Shown piece after piece: positions 27,835 to 34,683 of a stretch of 64,000 bases of DNA. Source of the stretch: Deltaproteobacteria bacterium. Its GTDB lineage: Bacteria > Myxococcota_A > UBA9160 > UBA6930. The number at the start of each line of letters is the position of its first letter. Position 1 is the first letter of the stretch. A program made the position numbers and the translations under genes. The DNA lies in contig VGRF01000009.1 in the NCBI GenBank assembly GCA_016875395.1, positions 62,001 to 126,000 on the forward strand, read 5' to 3'. The notes under the pieces were generated by a model. That model was not told the origin of the DNA. It ran no database searches and saw nothing but the letters and a program-made list of their open reading frames with translations.

Positions 27835-28362
27835 ATGGCCCGCTATCTCGCGACGATCGATCTGCCCCTCACGTGCGATGCCGCGTTCGACGCGCTCGCG
27901 GATTTCTCGACGACCGAGCGCTGGGATCCGAGCGTCGTGCGCGCGCGCCGCCTGACGCGCGGCGCCGTCGCCGAAGGCGCGCGCTTCGAGGTGGTGGTGC
28001 GCGTGCTCGGCGTCGAGAGCGCGCTCGAGTACGAGCTCGTCGTTGCGGAGCGCCCGCATCGCATCGTGCTGCGCGCGCAGCAAGGCGCGCTCACGTCGCT
28101 CGACGAGATCACGCTCGCACCGCGCGGCGAGGGCGTGCGCGTCACCTACGACGCGCGCATCGAGTTGTCCGGACTCGCTCGCGCGCTCGATCCGCTGCTC
28201 GATGCCTGGTTCCAGCGCAGCGGCGCGCGCTCCGTGGAGGGAATGCGGCGCGCGCTCTCGGCGCCGGCTCAGGCGCCGAGGGCGGCTTCCGCGAGGTTGC
28301 GCAGCGGAATGCGCGCACGCAGCCGGGCGCACAGCAAGAACGTCCCCGCGAACTTGCGCTGA
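27835..28362 (+). CDS. SRPBCC (polyketide cyclase/START-like) family protein
   Basis: A 175-residue protein preceded by GAGGAGACGCCC. The first 145 residues are a START/SRPBCC ligand-binding domain: ATIDLPLTCDAAFDALADFSTTERWDPSV, then a beta-sheet ending RVTYDARIELSG and the closing helix. The last 30 residues run into the 3' end of the convergent ABC1 gene (94-bp overlap) and are basic and low in pattern, so the true functional end is near residue 145. It lies ten bases after the DUF2867 gene in the rightward unit of site B. Confidence 0.78.
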   Translation: MARYLATIDLPLTCDAAFDALADFSTTERWDPSVVRARRLTRGAVAEGARFEVVVRVLGVESALEYELVVAERPHRIVLRAQQGALTSLDEITLAPRGEGVRVTYDARIELSGLARALDPLLDAWFQRSGARSVEGMRRALSAPAQAPRAASARLRSGMRARSRAHSKNVPANLR

Positions 28363-29600
28363 AGGAAGAGCGTCTCGGGCGGCGGCGGCCGCCGATGACC
28401 GGCGTCGAACGCGAGCGAGAGCGCGGCGTTGCGCAGGCGTTCGGCGAGCGACGAACGTCCGAAGTCGTAGACGCCGCGCGCCGCGAACGGCTCGCAGCTC
28501 GCTTCGAGAAGGTCGACCACCGCCTCGAGCCGACGCTCGCCGTCGCCATCTGCGACGAAGCCGAGACTCGTCGCGAAGTGGCGCATGCCCTCGCGGTCGC
28601 CGCGCATCGCCGAGCGCAGCAGGAGCGCGTAGCCGTCCGCGAGGCGCTTCGAGACGGGATGCGCCGCGCCGAGATCGATCAGGCCGAGGCGCTGCGACTC
28701 CGACAGCCACAAGTAGTTCGCGAAGTTCGGATCGCTCTGCACGAAGCGCAGCGAGAACACCTCGCGCAGTAACAAGCGGTAGAGCGCCGTGCCGACGGCG
28801 TCGCGTGCGGCCTGCGGTTGTTCTGGAGCGCACAGCTCCTCGAGCGGAGCTCCGGGCAAGTACTCCATCGCAAGCACACGGCGCGTGGTGAGCTCGGGAC
28901 GCGGGCGCGGCACCGCGAGCCTGGGCTCGTCCGCGAGCAGCTCCGCGTAGCGCGCGAGGTGTTTCGCTTCGAGGCGGTAGTCCGCCTCGCGGTGGAGCTG
29001 CCGCTTCGCCTCCGTGGCGAGCGCGGCGAGGTCGACGTCTCGCGGCAGCAGCTGCGACCAGCGCAGCGCGCGCACGAGCGCGTCGATGTCGCTGTCGATG
29101 CTGTCGGCCACGCCGGGAAACTGGATCTTCACGGCGAGCGCTGCGCCGTCGAGCGCCGTCGCGCGGTGAACCTGACCGATCGACGCGGCAGCCACGGGCT
29201 CGAGGTCGAACGACGCGACGCGCGTGCGCCACTCGCGTTTCCACTCTTTCTCGAGTACGCGCAGCAGCTGCGTCTCCGGCATCGCGTCGCCATCGGCGCG
29301 CAGCGCCGCGATCGCTTCCGCGAACTCGGGCGGCAGGAACTCGTCTCCTTCGAGCGAGAGCAGCTGCCCGAGCTTCATCGCCGCGCCGCGCAGGTGCGCG
29401 AGCCGCTCGGCGAGGCGCCGCCCGTTCGCCGGGGTGAGCAGTGCGCTCCACGCCGCGTTTTCGCGGCGGCCCACCAGCCGCCGCGCCTGTTCGAGCACGC
29501 CCCCGAGCGCGAGCTCGCCCGCGAGCACGCCGACGCGGCTCACGCGCTCGAGCGCGCTGCGCGGCACGCGCGAGCGCCGGCGGGGCGGAGCGGCGCTCAC
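28269..29600 (-). CDS. ABC1/UbiB (ADCK) family atypical kinase
   Basis: A 443-residue atypical kinase-like protein. The family KxGQ motif is in AMKLGQLLS, the Ala-rich nucleotide loop in VAAASIGQVHRA, the ATP lysine in LAVKIQFPGV, the catalytic DPNFANYL replaces a classic HRD-N segment, and the metal-binding DLGA is in LGLIDLGAAHP. UbiB/ADCK proteins act on isoprenoid lipids such as ubiquinone precursors. The start is a GTG at 29600 overlapping the stop of the peroxiredoxin-SDR gene (GTGA). It is the last gene of the unit read leftward from operator C, linking lipid or quinone metabolism to the light response (inference). Confidence 0.87.
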   Translation of the reverse strand: MSAAPPRRRSRVPRSALERVSRVGVLAGELALGGVLEQARRLVGRRENAAWSALLTPANGRRLAERLAHLRGAAMKLGQLLSLEGDEFLPPEFAEAIAALRADGDAMPETQLLRVLEKEWKREWRTRVASFDLEPVAAASIGQVHRATALDGAALAVKIQFPGVADSIDSDIDALVRALRWSQLLPRDVDLAALATEAKRQLHREADYRLEAKHLARYAELLADEPRLAVPRPRPELTTRRVLAMEYLPGAPLEELCAPEQPQAARDAVGTALYRLLLREVFSLRFVQSDPNFANYLWLSESQRLGLIDLGAAHPVSKRLADGYALLLRSAMRGDREGMRHFATSLGFVADGDGERRLEAVVDLLEASCEPFAARGVYDFGRSSLAERLRNAALSLAFDAGHRRPPPPETLFLQRKFAGTFLLCARLRARIPLRNLAEAALGA

Positions 29601-31144
29601 GCCGCGCGGTCCTCGGCGCCGCCCGCGATCGCCTTCTCCACGTAGCGCCACAGGGCTGCGCGCTCGCGCGCGCTCTCGCGCGTCCACGGCAAGAAGTGCT
29701 CGCTGCGGCGTTTGCGATCGAAGTAGAACGCGCCTTCTTCGAGCTTCTCGCGCGGCGCGGCGGCAAGCCAGACGATCGTGTCCGCACCCTCCGCGGGTGT
29801 TCGCAGCAGCGCCTCCGTCACGCGCCGGAAGCGCGGCAGCGAAGACGCGACCGCCGGCGTGTCCGCCCAGCCGGGGTGCATCGAGACGGAGCAGACGCTC
29901 GTCTTCGCGAGCTTGCGTGCCCACTGCTCCGCGAGCGCGACCTGCATGCGCTTGGTCTCCGCATACGCGAGCCCGCCGTCGTAGGCGCGCTTCGTCCACT
30001 GCGGATCGTTCAGGTCGAGCTTGCGCGTGTACATCCCGCCCGACGAAACCCAGATCAGCCGCGCGTCGTCCGAGCGCTCGAGCGCCGGCCGTAACAACTG
30101 GGTCAGCAGCTGCGGACCCGCGACGTGCGTCGCGAAGGTGAGCTCGAAGCCGTCGCGCGATTCGCCGCGCTCGTCGGGGAGCACGCCCGCGTTGTGGACG
30201 AGGATGTCGAGGCGCTGCGCCGCGAGGCGCGGCGCGACTGCGCGCACGGCGGCGAGGTCCGACACGTCGAGCACCTCGAGCGAGATCTTGCGGCTGCCCG
30301 TGCGTTCGCGGATGGCGTCGCGCGCGGCGATCCCGCGTTCCTCGTTGCGGCACGCGAGCACGACCTCCGCGCCGAGATCCGCGAGCGCGAGCGCCGTCTC
30401 GAAGCCGATGCCGGAGTTCGCGCCCGTGACTACGGCGCGCTTCCCGCTCAGGTCGCGGTCGAGGTCATCGGGATCGAAGCCGAGCGCGTGGCGCGCGAAG
30501 CCGGTGCGGTCGAACGAGAACAAGATCGTGGGATCGAGCACGCGCGAGAGCGCGTTCGCGGCACGAACCACGCGCGGCGAGGGTGAGCTTTCCTCTCGCA
30601 GCGCGGGCGCGTCGGGCGCGAGCGCGGCGAGGATGTCCTCCGTCGCTGCGTGGTCGCCCGCTTCGCGCGAAACGTGGCGCAGCGTGAGCGACCCATCCTG
30701 GCGCACTACCAGCACGCCTCCGAGCTGGAACGGGTCGCCCTGCACGGCGCCTTGCCGGTAGCCGCCGCGCAGCGCGCGCAACGCGTTCGTCGCGAGGCGC
30801 GGCGAGAGCAGCTCGCTGCGGCCGCGCCGCATGCCCGCCGCGCGATACGAGCGCAGCCCGGGGTCGACGAGCAGCACGACGTCGTCCGGCAAGCCGATGT
30901 CTTCGCGGAATGCGCGGGCAAATTCCGCGGTGCCATTGCCGATGATGGCGAGGTCGCCGCCTGCGGCGCGGATCTCGGGAAGCTTGTCGCGCAACTGCGC
31001 GACTTGTTCGCGGCAGAACATTCAACCGAAGTGGCGCACCCAGGCGATCACGACCTTGCGCTCCCGCCACAGCTCGGCGAGCGCGAGCTCGCCACCTTCT
31101 GCGCGCGCGAGCGAGAGGGCGGCGAGTCGAAGCGAAGTTCTCAT
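29597..31144 (-). CDS. putative selenoprotein: peroxiredoxin-like (AhpC-TSA_2) domain fused to a DHRS12-like short-chain dehydrogenase, Sec encoded by UGA at 31022-31024
   Basis: The start ATG at 31144 has an AGGAG site upstream. Forty codons end in AWVRHFG, then an in-frame TGA (31024-31022), then MFCREQVAQLRD and 474 more open codons. In the Prx-like2/AhpC-TSA_2 family this spot is the first Cys of a CxxC motif, so TGA is read as selenocysteine 41, giving U-x-x-C. The Prx-like domain covers about residues 1-180. The SDR domain follows, with TGANSGIG near 240, IWVSSGG and the YAETK catalytic pair near 394-398. A hairpin 18 bases after the TGA fits a bacterial SECIS. Reading only from the ATG after the TGA would remove the first beta strand and redox residue. 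A nonsense mutation or base error remains possible; no sel genes lie in the window. Confidence 0.78.
30986..31003 (-). promoter_or_regulatory. candidate bacterial SECIS hairpin
   Basis: On the minus strand the 18 bases GTCGCGCAGTTGCGCGAC fold perfectly: a 6-bp stem GTCGCG/CGCGAC with apical loop CAGTTG, or 8 bp with a GT loop. The stem starts 18 nt and the loop 24 nt after the UGA, inside the 16-37 nt window known for SelB-recognised bSECIS elements, and the loop contains GU. It lies within the coding sequence, as bacterial SECIS elements do. An overlapping upstream hairpin (CGCGA/TCGCG) is an alternative. Confidence 0.6.
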
Positions 31145-31197: not shown

Positions 31198-31359
31198 TCA
31201 GCGGGGTCTTGCGCTCGACGGAGCCTGTTCCGAAGTCTCGGCGGCCGTCTCAGCGCGCGGTGAGCCGTCGAGGAAGCGCTCACGCACGAACGTGTAGGCG
31301 CCGCCGAAGGCCATGAACAGAACTCCGCAGCCCCAAGCGAAGAGGTCCGAGTCAGTCAT
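31198..31359 (-). CDS. 53-residue single-span membrane protein
   Basis: A very short protein starting MTDSDLFAWGCGVLFMAFGGAYTFVRERF: one membrane helix followed by a polar tail rich in Ala, Glu and Ser. Its ATG (31359) overlaps the last eight bases of the 72-residue membrane protein gene, implying coupled translation. It sits between that gene and the peroxiredoxin-SDR gene in the unit of operator C. No family is recognised. Confidence 0.6.
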   Translation of the reverse strand: MTDSDLFAWGCGVLFMAFGGAYTFVRERFLDGSPRAETAAETSEQAPSSARPR

Positions 31360-31570
31360 TTCGGAGTCCTCCGAGCAGCAAGCTCCCCGCAGACAAGATC
31401 GACGGCACCCAGACGCCGACGAAGATCCCGCGATCGTGGTCACCGGTGAAGTAGAAGTAGACCGAGAGCAGGAAGGAAAGCCCTGCGGCGCCGAAGAACC
31501 ACGCCTTCGTCGTAACGAGGGTCTTGTCGACGGAGACCATCTCGTCTCCCCGAGCTCGCGAATTGGCCAT
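31352..31570 (-). CDS. 72-residue two-span membrane protein
   Basis: Starts MANSRARGDEMVSVDKTLVTTKAW after an AAGGA ribosome-binding site. It has two hydrophobic helices (FFGAAGLSFLLSVYFYF and GIFVGVWVPSILSAGSLLLGG) joined by the polar turn TGDHDRG. It is the first gene after operator C, 88 bases from the palindrome. No family is recognised. With the 53-residue partner it may form a small membrane complex or anchor for the redox enzyme encoded next (inference). Confidence 0.65.
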   Translation of the reverse strand: MANSRARGDEMVSVDKTLVTTKAWFFGAAGLSFLLSVYFYFTGDHDRGIFVGVWVPSILSAGSLLLGGLRND

Positions 31571-31883
31571 TGTTGTCGTCCTTTTTTGTCTCGAGCTCTC
31601 GGCCGCACGATGCGGTCGCTCCCGAGCTGTCCATATGGATAACGGAAGAACGGCTTGTTGTCTATATTTTTTATAGACAAAATTTGGGCTGCTCGACAGG
31701 CTCGGCAGGGGCCAGGGCCAGGCCAGAGGACCAAGTCGATCCCTTCACCAAGGGGGCTGGTTTGAGGCGAGCTTCGCGCCCAGTGCTTGCGCCAGACCGT
31801 CGATGGCCTGCAAACCACACGGGGCTTGCTCGGTGGCGACTGCTCGTTGCCTTTGAACGCAGAACGCGAGTCGCGCTGCGAGC
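31571..31883. other. intergenic region holding operator C; no gene
   Basis: This 313-base gap contains the leader and promoter region of the small membrane protein gene and operator C (31658-31680). From 31681 to the 3' end of dps nothing recognisable is seen: no credible start with a ribosome-binding site on either strand. Confidence 0.5.
31658..31680. promoter_or_regulatory. candidate CarH/LitR operator C
   Basis: A perfect palindrome: TTGTCTATA (31658-31666), five T, TATAGACAA (31672-31680). The inner 21 bases share the TGTC-N13-GACA layout of sites A, B and D. It sits 88 bases upstream of the minus-strand unit membrane protein/membrane protein/selenoprotein-SDR/ABC1 in an AT-rich patch of an otherwise GC-rich gap. 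Confidence 0.78.
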
Positions 31884-32394: not shown

Positions 32395-32583
32395 TCAGCG
32401 TGCTTCGACGCAGGGGCGCGAGCGGCGCGCGCGCGTCGCGCTCGAAGCGCACGATCTCGCGCACGTGCTCGCGTGACCCCCGAGCTGCCGCGCGGCCTCG
32501 AACAGCGTGACGTCGTGATGCGGGCCCAATCGGTGGGCGCACGCGAGCCCCGTGATCCCTGCGCCGACGATCGCGATCTTCAT
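32395..32583 (-). pseudogene. N-terminal remnant of an FAD-dependent oxidoreductase
   Basis: Only the dinucleotide-binding start survives: [19 protein letters not shown] and DVTLFEAARQLGGHA, about 38 residues. The reading then turns into an arginine-rich tail without pattern and stops at 32395. Intact homologues (about 400-450 residues, amine oxidase type) sit next to cyclopropane synthase-like genes in many bacteria. Most of the gene was deleted. Its ATG overlaps the stop of the methyltransferase gene (ATGA), so the operon junction is preserved. Confidence 0.75.
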
Positions 32584-33720: not shown

Positions 33721-34683
33721 ATGCCCGCGAGGAACGAAGCCACCTACGCCCTCGGTGCGGTCTGCCGCATCACCGGTCTCTCGCCGCACGTCGTTCGGGT
33801 TTGGGAGCGGCGCTACGGAGCAATCGCGCCGCTGCGCACGCCGAAGGGCACGCGGCGCTACCGGCCGGCGGACGTGGAGCGCCTTCAGCTGCTGCGCGCG
33901 GGCGTCGAGGCGGGCCACCGCATCGGCTCGCTCGTGAGCCTCGACGACCCGACGCTGGCCGCGCTCGCACGGGCGAGCGCCGCGACCCCCGCGCAGCCCG
34001 CAGAGCCGCTCGCGCGCGCCATCGCGGCGATCGAGGCCCTTGACGCTGGCCTCGCCGAGCGAGTCATCGCGGATCAGCTGCTCTCGCTCGGTCCGGTTCG
34101 CTTCGCGCGCGAGTTCGCGCTGCCGCTGCTCGGCGCAGTCGGCACACGCTGGTTCGAGGGCAAGCTGTGCGTCGCGGCCGAGCACATGGCGTCAGCCCAG
34201 CTGCGCTCGCTGTTGGGTGCGGCGCTGCGCCCGGCCCCGCGTGCGGCCGGCGCGCCACTCGTACTCTTCGCGACGCTGCCGAGTGAGCGTCACGAGCTGG
34301 GACTCCTGATCTCGGCGCTCGTCGCGATGGGCGAGGGTGCGAGCCCGTTGTATCTCGGAGTAGAGCTGCCGCCGACCGAGCTGGCGAAGGCGGCCGAGCT
34401 TGCGAGCGCGAGCGCGCTCGTCCTCGCCGTGACGCACGCGAGCAAGGCGACGGGGCGTGATCTCGCGGAGACGAGGTCCGCGATTCCACGCGCGACCGAG
34501 ATCTGGCTCGGTGGCGCGGCCGCATCGAATCTCGAGCTGCCGCCAGGGGTGACGCTGCTCGCGACCCTCGAAGATCTCGAGCGGCAGGTACGCCGCCTCC
34601 ACGAGCCACGCGCAGTTCGTGTCGTCCGCAAGGGCGCGCGCTCCGCCAAGGCCACGCGCAGCAAGCCCCCCCTGCGCGGCTAG
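33721..34683 (+). CDS. carH: CarH/LitR-type MerR-family B12-dependent photoreceptor repressor
   Basis: A 320-residue regulator. A MerR DNA-binding domain lies at residues 8-75 (YALGAVCRITGLSPHVVRVWERRY). A four-helix B12 cap has the Wx9EH signature (W144, E154, H155), and a Rossmann-like cobalamin domain has the ERHELG histidine (H191). These are the residues that hold adenosylcobalamin and sense its photolysis in Thermus CarH. In the dark AdoB12 drives tetramer formation and repression; light breaks the Co-C bond and releases DNA. GAGGAGGCGAG precedes the ATG. Operator D lies 27 bases upstream, implying autoregulation, and three matching sites lie within 13 kb. Confidence 0.95.
   Translation: MPARNEATYALGAVCRITGLSPHVVRVWERRYGAIAPLRTPKGTRRYRPADVERLQLLRAGVEAGHRIGSLVSLDDPTLAALARASAATPAQPAEPLARAIAAIEALDAGLAERVIADQLLSLGPVRFAREFALPLLGAVGTRWFEGKLCVAAEHMASAQLRSLLGAALRPAPRAAGAPLVLFATLPSERHELGLLISALVAMGEGASPLYLGVELPPTELAKAAELASASALVLAVTHASKATGRDLAETRSAIPRATEIWLGGAAASNLELPPGVTLLATLEDLERQVRRLHEPRAVRVVRKGARSAKATRSKPPLRG

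Follow-up and report, generated by a model that had tools for sequence, protein, structure and literature searches.

A predicted selenocysteine-containing fusion of a Prx-like2 domain and a short-chain dehydrogenase in the Myxococcota

Described relatives and the fused gene

SelL proteins of aquatic animals are stand-alone selenoproteins of the Prx-like2 type which carry a UxxU motif and have a eukaryotic SECIS element in the 3'UTR, and prostaglandin F synthase is known as an endoperoxide reductase. SelL has been described as a Prx-like protein and, in the same GOS study, fusions were reported for the Prx-like 2 (pfam04592) and Prx-like 3 selenoproteins, with distant Secretin_N or unknown domains as partners (PMC2398784). 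An inventory from 2026, covering 119 prokaryotic selenoprotein families, includes Prx-like proteins with UxxC or UxxU motifs and cd02970 proteins with UxxS (PMC13188914), and this UxxS selenoprotein, of the peroxiredoxin-like family cd02970/pfam13911, also features in PMC9312934.

The gene considered here lies at positions 29597–31144, on the minus strand, of the window, by which we mean the whole 64,000-nucleotide stretch of deltaproteobacterial DNA that was analysed. It is predicted to encode 515 residues, including a selenocysteine (Sec, U41), followed by a TGA stop codon, and its product combines an N-terminal Prx-like2 (AhpC-TSA_2/SelL-related) domain with a UxxC active site (residues 1–185; 30590–31144, minus strand), a largely helical linker (30461–30589, minus strand) and a classical short-chain dehydrogenase (SDR) domain (residues 229–515; 29600–30460, minus strand). 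Residues 50–160 match AhpC-TSA_2 (PF13911) with 49.6 bits, against a gathering cut-off of 27. In an AlphaFold model, built with 24 homologues and with a mean pLDDT of 87.8, U41 is located between a strand (30–36) and a helix (42–53), which is the redox position of the thioredoxin fold. Among proteins of solved structure, the best match by sequence is prostamide/prostaglandin F synthase (PRXL2B, PDB 9us9; E 3.6e-12, residues 6–179), in which a Cys of a CxxC motif aligns with U41; its domain is homologous but it is a stand-alone Cys enzyme.

The domain and its UxxC/CxxC position are shared with the families NF040769 (SelL-related) and PF13911, where TGA occurs at this position in relatives from many phyla. 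However, the solo members that we found are of about 175–200 aa whereas the window protein is fused to an SDR, and its domain scores 113.5 against NF040769, just below the curated cut-off of 120, which the fused relative L018 passes with 145.1. The original prediction had invoked kinship with the SelL family; this holds at the level of the Prx-like2/SelL-related group, but the window domain is a bacterial UxxC form (U-M-F-C) and not a eukaryotic UxxU SelL. The cd02970/pfam13911 selenoprotein belongs to the same Prx-like2 superfamily and also carries Sec, but as UxxS, and no SDR is mentioned for it. The GOS fusions likewise join a selenoprotein to a second domain, but their partners are not SDRs. 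The SDR fusion was absent from the 2026 inventory of 119 families (PMC13188914), from the GOS study (PMC2398784) and from open-access text, although it may have been annotated before. While the Sec-containing Prx-like2 domain is already known, the SDR-fused architecture appears to be undescribed and would add a new two-domain arrangement to the prokaryotic selenoproteome.

The in-frame TGA and the SECIS-type hairpin

The reading frame begins with an ATG at 31144, preceded by CCCAGGAGATTCC with a Shine-Dalgarno-like AGGAG, and its sole interruption is a TGA at 31022–31024 (minus strand), in the context HFG-TGA-MFCREQ, after which 474 codons extend to a second TGA at 29599–29597, as was originally predicted. 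The internal TGA had also been proposed to replace the first Cys of the motif HFG-C-x-x-C-REQ, and Cys homologues do read HFGCxxC there. Since the TGA is followed at once by an ATG codon (TGAATG), a standard ORF caller loses residue 41 and yields a product of 474 aa beginning MFCREQ, so that the anticipated loss of the active site in automatic annotation was borne out.

This arrangement could also be read as a true stop that ends a 40-residue peptide, with the ribosome reinitiating at TGAATG to produce an SDR whose Prx-like N-terminal part is shortened; the ATG directly 3' of the TGA in the window would be well placed for this. Among 26 fused genes, however, the codon following the TGA is CTG or CTC in 23 and ATC in one, not ATG. 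Moreover, the codons upstream of the TGA show conservation at the protein level and can be aligned with the Cys homologues, a comparison that the original prediction had suggested. Per-site divergence at codon positions 1, 2 and 3 is 0.24, 0.21 and 0.45 over the 20 codons that precede the TGA, and 0.26, 0.21 and 0.54 downstream, a resemblance which indicates that the upstream stretch is constrained as coding sequence in this frame. Given also a conserved and covarying downstream hairpin with no obvious role in reinitiation, a true stop was rejected as very improbable.

In all 26 fused genes the same codon is TGA, within the context R[HQ]FG-TGA-[LMI]FCREQ, while Cys occurs in none, and the motif is UxxC throughout. 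Neither another stop nor a deletion was seen at that codon among the relatives. The assembly is fragmented (96 contigs), which might raise the suspicion that the codon was TGC or TGT and that the TGA reflects an error of sequencing or assembly, or the decay of a pseudogene. Against this, 26 separate genomes share the TGA, which is also present in 96 stretches from named genomes matching the DNA pattern of the context (a pattern itself written with TGA), and outside this codon the gene is conserved and intact; the explanation was rejected and its probability is negligible.

The genome that carries the window (4.5 Mb, 96 contigs, 96% complete) contains selA, selB, selC and selD, the four genes for which a search had been suggested, all above their curated cut-offs: selA (515 bits against 268), SelB as a 676-codon open frame (282 bits against 242), selD (262 bits against 125) and tRNA-Sec (selC; 71 bits against 47 in a search with RF01852). 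ARAGORN also calls a tRNA-Sec, with the anticodon TCA. Across the order, selA was detected in 75 of 80 genomes and one of the five lacking it, the 85%-complete bin G006, carries the fusion, so that co-occurrence is compatible with Sec insertion but uninformative.

A perfect inverted repeat of 18 nt, GTCGCGCAGTTGCGCGAC, lies at 30986–31003 (minus strand), exactly 18 nt past the TGA as had been noted earlier, and it constitutes a putative bacterial SECIS-type hairpin with a stem of 7 bp and the loop AGUU. Published bSECIS rules specify a loop of 3–9 nt, a stem of 4–16 bp, a G in the first two loop positions, a distance of 16–37 nt from the UGA and an MFE of -7.5 or lower (PMC13188914), and the window hairpin conforms to them (loop AGUU, 7 bp, 25 nt to the loop, -12.1 kcal/mol). 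Taken alone it is unremarkable in a GC-rich gene, with single-sequence folding of the 76-nt region of the window being no better than for shuffles and 8% of synonymous recodings of the window sequence yielding an equally stable hairpin; the case for a SECIS element rests, therefore, on comparison. The rules are obeyed by 25 of the 26 fused genes, against 11.6% of synonymous recodings, and by 54 of 65 solo genes, against 6.2%. Over the fused genes the stem is 98.9% paired (slid controls, 10–57%), with compensatory changes on both sides in two stem pairs, and for 95 distinct fused and solo sequences several pairs swap among CG, GC, TA and AT, 84% being paired against 22–52% when slid. All 26 fused genes have TTG as the Leu codon spanning the 3' side of the loop, compared with 6.6% outside this position in these genes, and a GTC codon at the hairpin is likewise present in all 26, against a background of 50%.

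Judged from these sequence comparisons, the window gene almost certainly encodes a genuine selenoprotein, in which the UGA at 31024–31022 would be decoded as selenocysteine by SelA, SelB, SelC and SelD under the direction of the hairpin, and the analyses run yielded no evidence contradicting this reading.

Distribution and origin of the fusion

The read-through search extended over 98 genomes, comprising the window's own and those of relatives, and the 26 fused genes, counting that of the window, came from 26 separate genomes. Two of them are cut by contig ends, and the relatives are 55–68% identical to the window's gene. Within the class, the fusion occurs in roughly 29 of 91 genomes. No Cys-coded fusion was found in the order (80 genomes) or the class (91 genomes), which suggests that Sec matters for function. 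About 28 of the 96 stretches matching the TGA-containing pattern run on into an SDR and are mostly labelled Myxococcota or Deltaproteobacteria; nearly all of the others end after about 130–160 codons and derive from Myxococcota, Acidobacteriota, Actinomycetota, Planctomycetota, Armatimonadota, Gemmatimonadota and others. Farther relatives carry Cys at the site, as HFGCxxC or HFACxxC. A search of plasmids produced partial matches only, mostly to the SDR, none of which covers 80% of the query.

In a quick ML tree of the N-terminal domain, all 37 fused rows fell inside one clade of 42 rows, and of the remaining five rows two are cut by the edge of a contig and the other three are solo. This is consistent with a single fusion event and a handful of subsequent separations or copies that are not fused and, on this tree, the fused forms are one clade, mostly from Myxococcota. 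Genes of the clade are likely to be mis-annotated as SDRs beginning after the stop.

Residues 235–434 of the window protein match adh_short with 82.2 bits, against a cut-off of 26.6. The domain carries the motifs TGANSGIG, ACRNEER, HNAG, VSSGG and YAETK, and the classical SDR motifs TGxxxGxG, NAG, S and YxxxK show little or no variation among 24 fused proteins, the invariant residues being G241, G245, G247, N318, A319, G320, S368, Y394 and K398. R266, which follows the second strand, would fit a preference for NADP(H). The nearest folds of the SDR half are NADPH protochlorophyllide reductases (LPOR-type) and 3rd5. Alignments with SDR-only relatives, of 333–363 aa, start at about query residues 176–195 and, since part of the linker thus already precedes the SDR in stand-alone proteins, the simplest history would be that a Sec-containing Prx-like2 gene became joined to the front of an existing SDR gene.

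Some stand-alone Sec Prx-like2 genes of the Myxococcaceae/Archangiaceae (L061, L070, L100, L109, L126 and L131) show another SECIS-like stem at about the same place, most being of the type GTGGCC/GGTCAC, and they provide rich material for studying SECIS covariation. A second, distant Prx-like2 gene in genome G000 (L183, G000:C1:297500-302500; gene at about C1:299560-300090) has an in-frame TGA within HFG-TGA-PICRQ and is likely to encode another stand-alone selenoprotein. A Sec Prx-like2 gene was also seen on a contig titled as a Klebsiella pneumoniae MAG (L095), a bin which is probably misnamed or contaminated.

Possible activities and gene neighbourhood

The 515-residue chain would unite a thioredoxin-fold Prx-like2 domain, with U41 and C44 at the redox position, and an NADP(H)-type SDR with intact catalytic motifs. 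We propose that the Sec domain acts as a reductase of organic (hydro/endo)peroxides, of lipids or otherwise, such that U41 would attack the peroxide or endoperoxide, C44 would resolve the intermediate as a selenenyl sulfide, and a cellular dithiol would recharge the U41–C44 selenenyl sulfide, while the SDR would use NADPH to reduce the resulting carbonyl compound or a related lipid. This pairing of peroxide reduction via a U41–C44 cycle with NADPH-dependent carbonyl reduction is advanced tentatively, as quite possible.

A serious alternative, with an appreciable though minority probability, is that the Sec domain has no peroxidase activity and acts as a thiol-disulfide or regulatory redox domain through which the SDR, or some other partner, would be controlled. 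The UxxC motif is characteristic of thiol-disulfide oxidoreductases (table in PMC13188914) and both domains are kept in one chain; on the other hand, the closest solved relative by sequence is an endoperoxide reductase, prostaglandin F synthase, and the neighbouring genes point to lipid and photo-oxidative stress (see below), neither point being decisive. The fusion might also do no more than link two enzymes that work independently in one stress response, with neither channelling nor interplay between the domains. The three solo Sec proteins nested in the fused clade, and the solo SDRs of the same family, indicate that the parts can live apart, but retention of the fusion in roughly 29 of 91 class genomes, at 55–68% identity, renders this reading unlikely.

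The putative operon is preceded by a palindrome, TTGTCTATAAAAAATATAGACAA, at 31658–31680 (minus strand), a putative operator of a MerR/B12 (CarH/LitR-like) regulator. Downstream from it follow genes for two small membrane-type proteins, the first of 72 aa (31352–31570, minus strand) and the second, which overlaps it, of 53 aa (31198–31359, minus strand), then the fusion and a gene for an ABC1/UbiB-type atypical kinase (28269–29600, minus strand; PF03109, 185 bits), the GTG start of which overlaps the fusion stop by 4 bp (GTGA). A MerR-family regulator with a B12-binding_2 domain (CarH/LitR-like) is encoded at 33721–34683 on the plus strand. A search for TGTCTA-N9-TAGACA that tolerated two mismatches gave four copies in the window (20781, 26348, 31659 and 33673), none with more than one mismatch, where 0.1 would be expected. 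The MerR/B12-binding regulator and a CFA-synthase-like gene flank one of them, FolE2 and a DUF2867 protein flank another, and several occupy promoter-like gaps adjoining light/stress-type genes. The four palindromes are a candidate operator set for the regulator.

Neighbours of the fusion in relatives include, in varying order, photolyase, CMAS, amine oxidase, SRPBCC, UbiB, DUF2867 and MerR genes. The original prediction had placed the fusion under a CarH operator, and in the window's genome this putative operator would belong to an apparent MerR/B12 regulon, but the palindrome is directly upstream of the fusion in only a few relatives. Light control through such sites is, therefore, not general and the operator does not define the fusion; a CarH operator was rejected as a general feature.

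LitR clusters of Pseudomonas hold an SDR, photolyase, FAD oxidoreductase and UfaM and, in Pseudomonas mendocina, the SDR of the PmlR1 region (PME6630) lies amid these genes and a MerR/B12-type regulator (PMC9758184). No Prx-like or Sec domain is reported for PME6630, and its likeness to the window SDR lies in the gene setting. Together with the light-type neighbours here and in relatives, these clusters lead us to infer a likely light or photo-oxidative role for the fusion. In the window's genome it is, on balance, probably co-induced with genes of the CFA synthase and FolE2 types in a response to light or photo-oxidative stress. The fusion would link selenium use to this apparent stress gene set and, if it is indeed light-controlled, it would be the first selenoprotein known to us that is tied to a B12-type light regulator.

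The whole account, of a selenoprotein with a two-domain mechanism in a light/stress context, we consider quite probable. The most specific version, a bifunctional light-controlled selenoenzyme in which a Sec-dependent lipid (hydro/endo)peroxide reductase is covalently coupled to an NADPH-dependent SDR acting on its carbonyl product, seems somewhat unlikely; if true, it would represent a bacterial counterpart to the reaction of prostaglandin F synthase, directed against photo-oxidised membrane lipids. The fusion offers a concrete enzyme for asking whether a Sec Prx-like2 domain reduces lipid peroxides and whether the SDR acts on the product.

Two minor features of the locus were also observed. 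The first of the two small membrane-type genes at 31570–31198 (minus strand) has counterparts near some fused relatives. The CFA-synthase-like gene is followed immediately, at 32583–32395 (minus strand), by a flavin amine-oxidase-like N-terminus in which similarity is lost after about 40 residues and a stop occurs after about 60; this looks like a decayed remnant, and the relative L142 carries an intact amine oxidase of 428 aa (854–2137) after its CFA-type gene.
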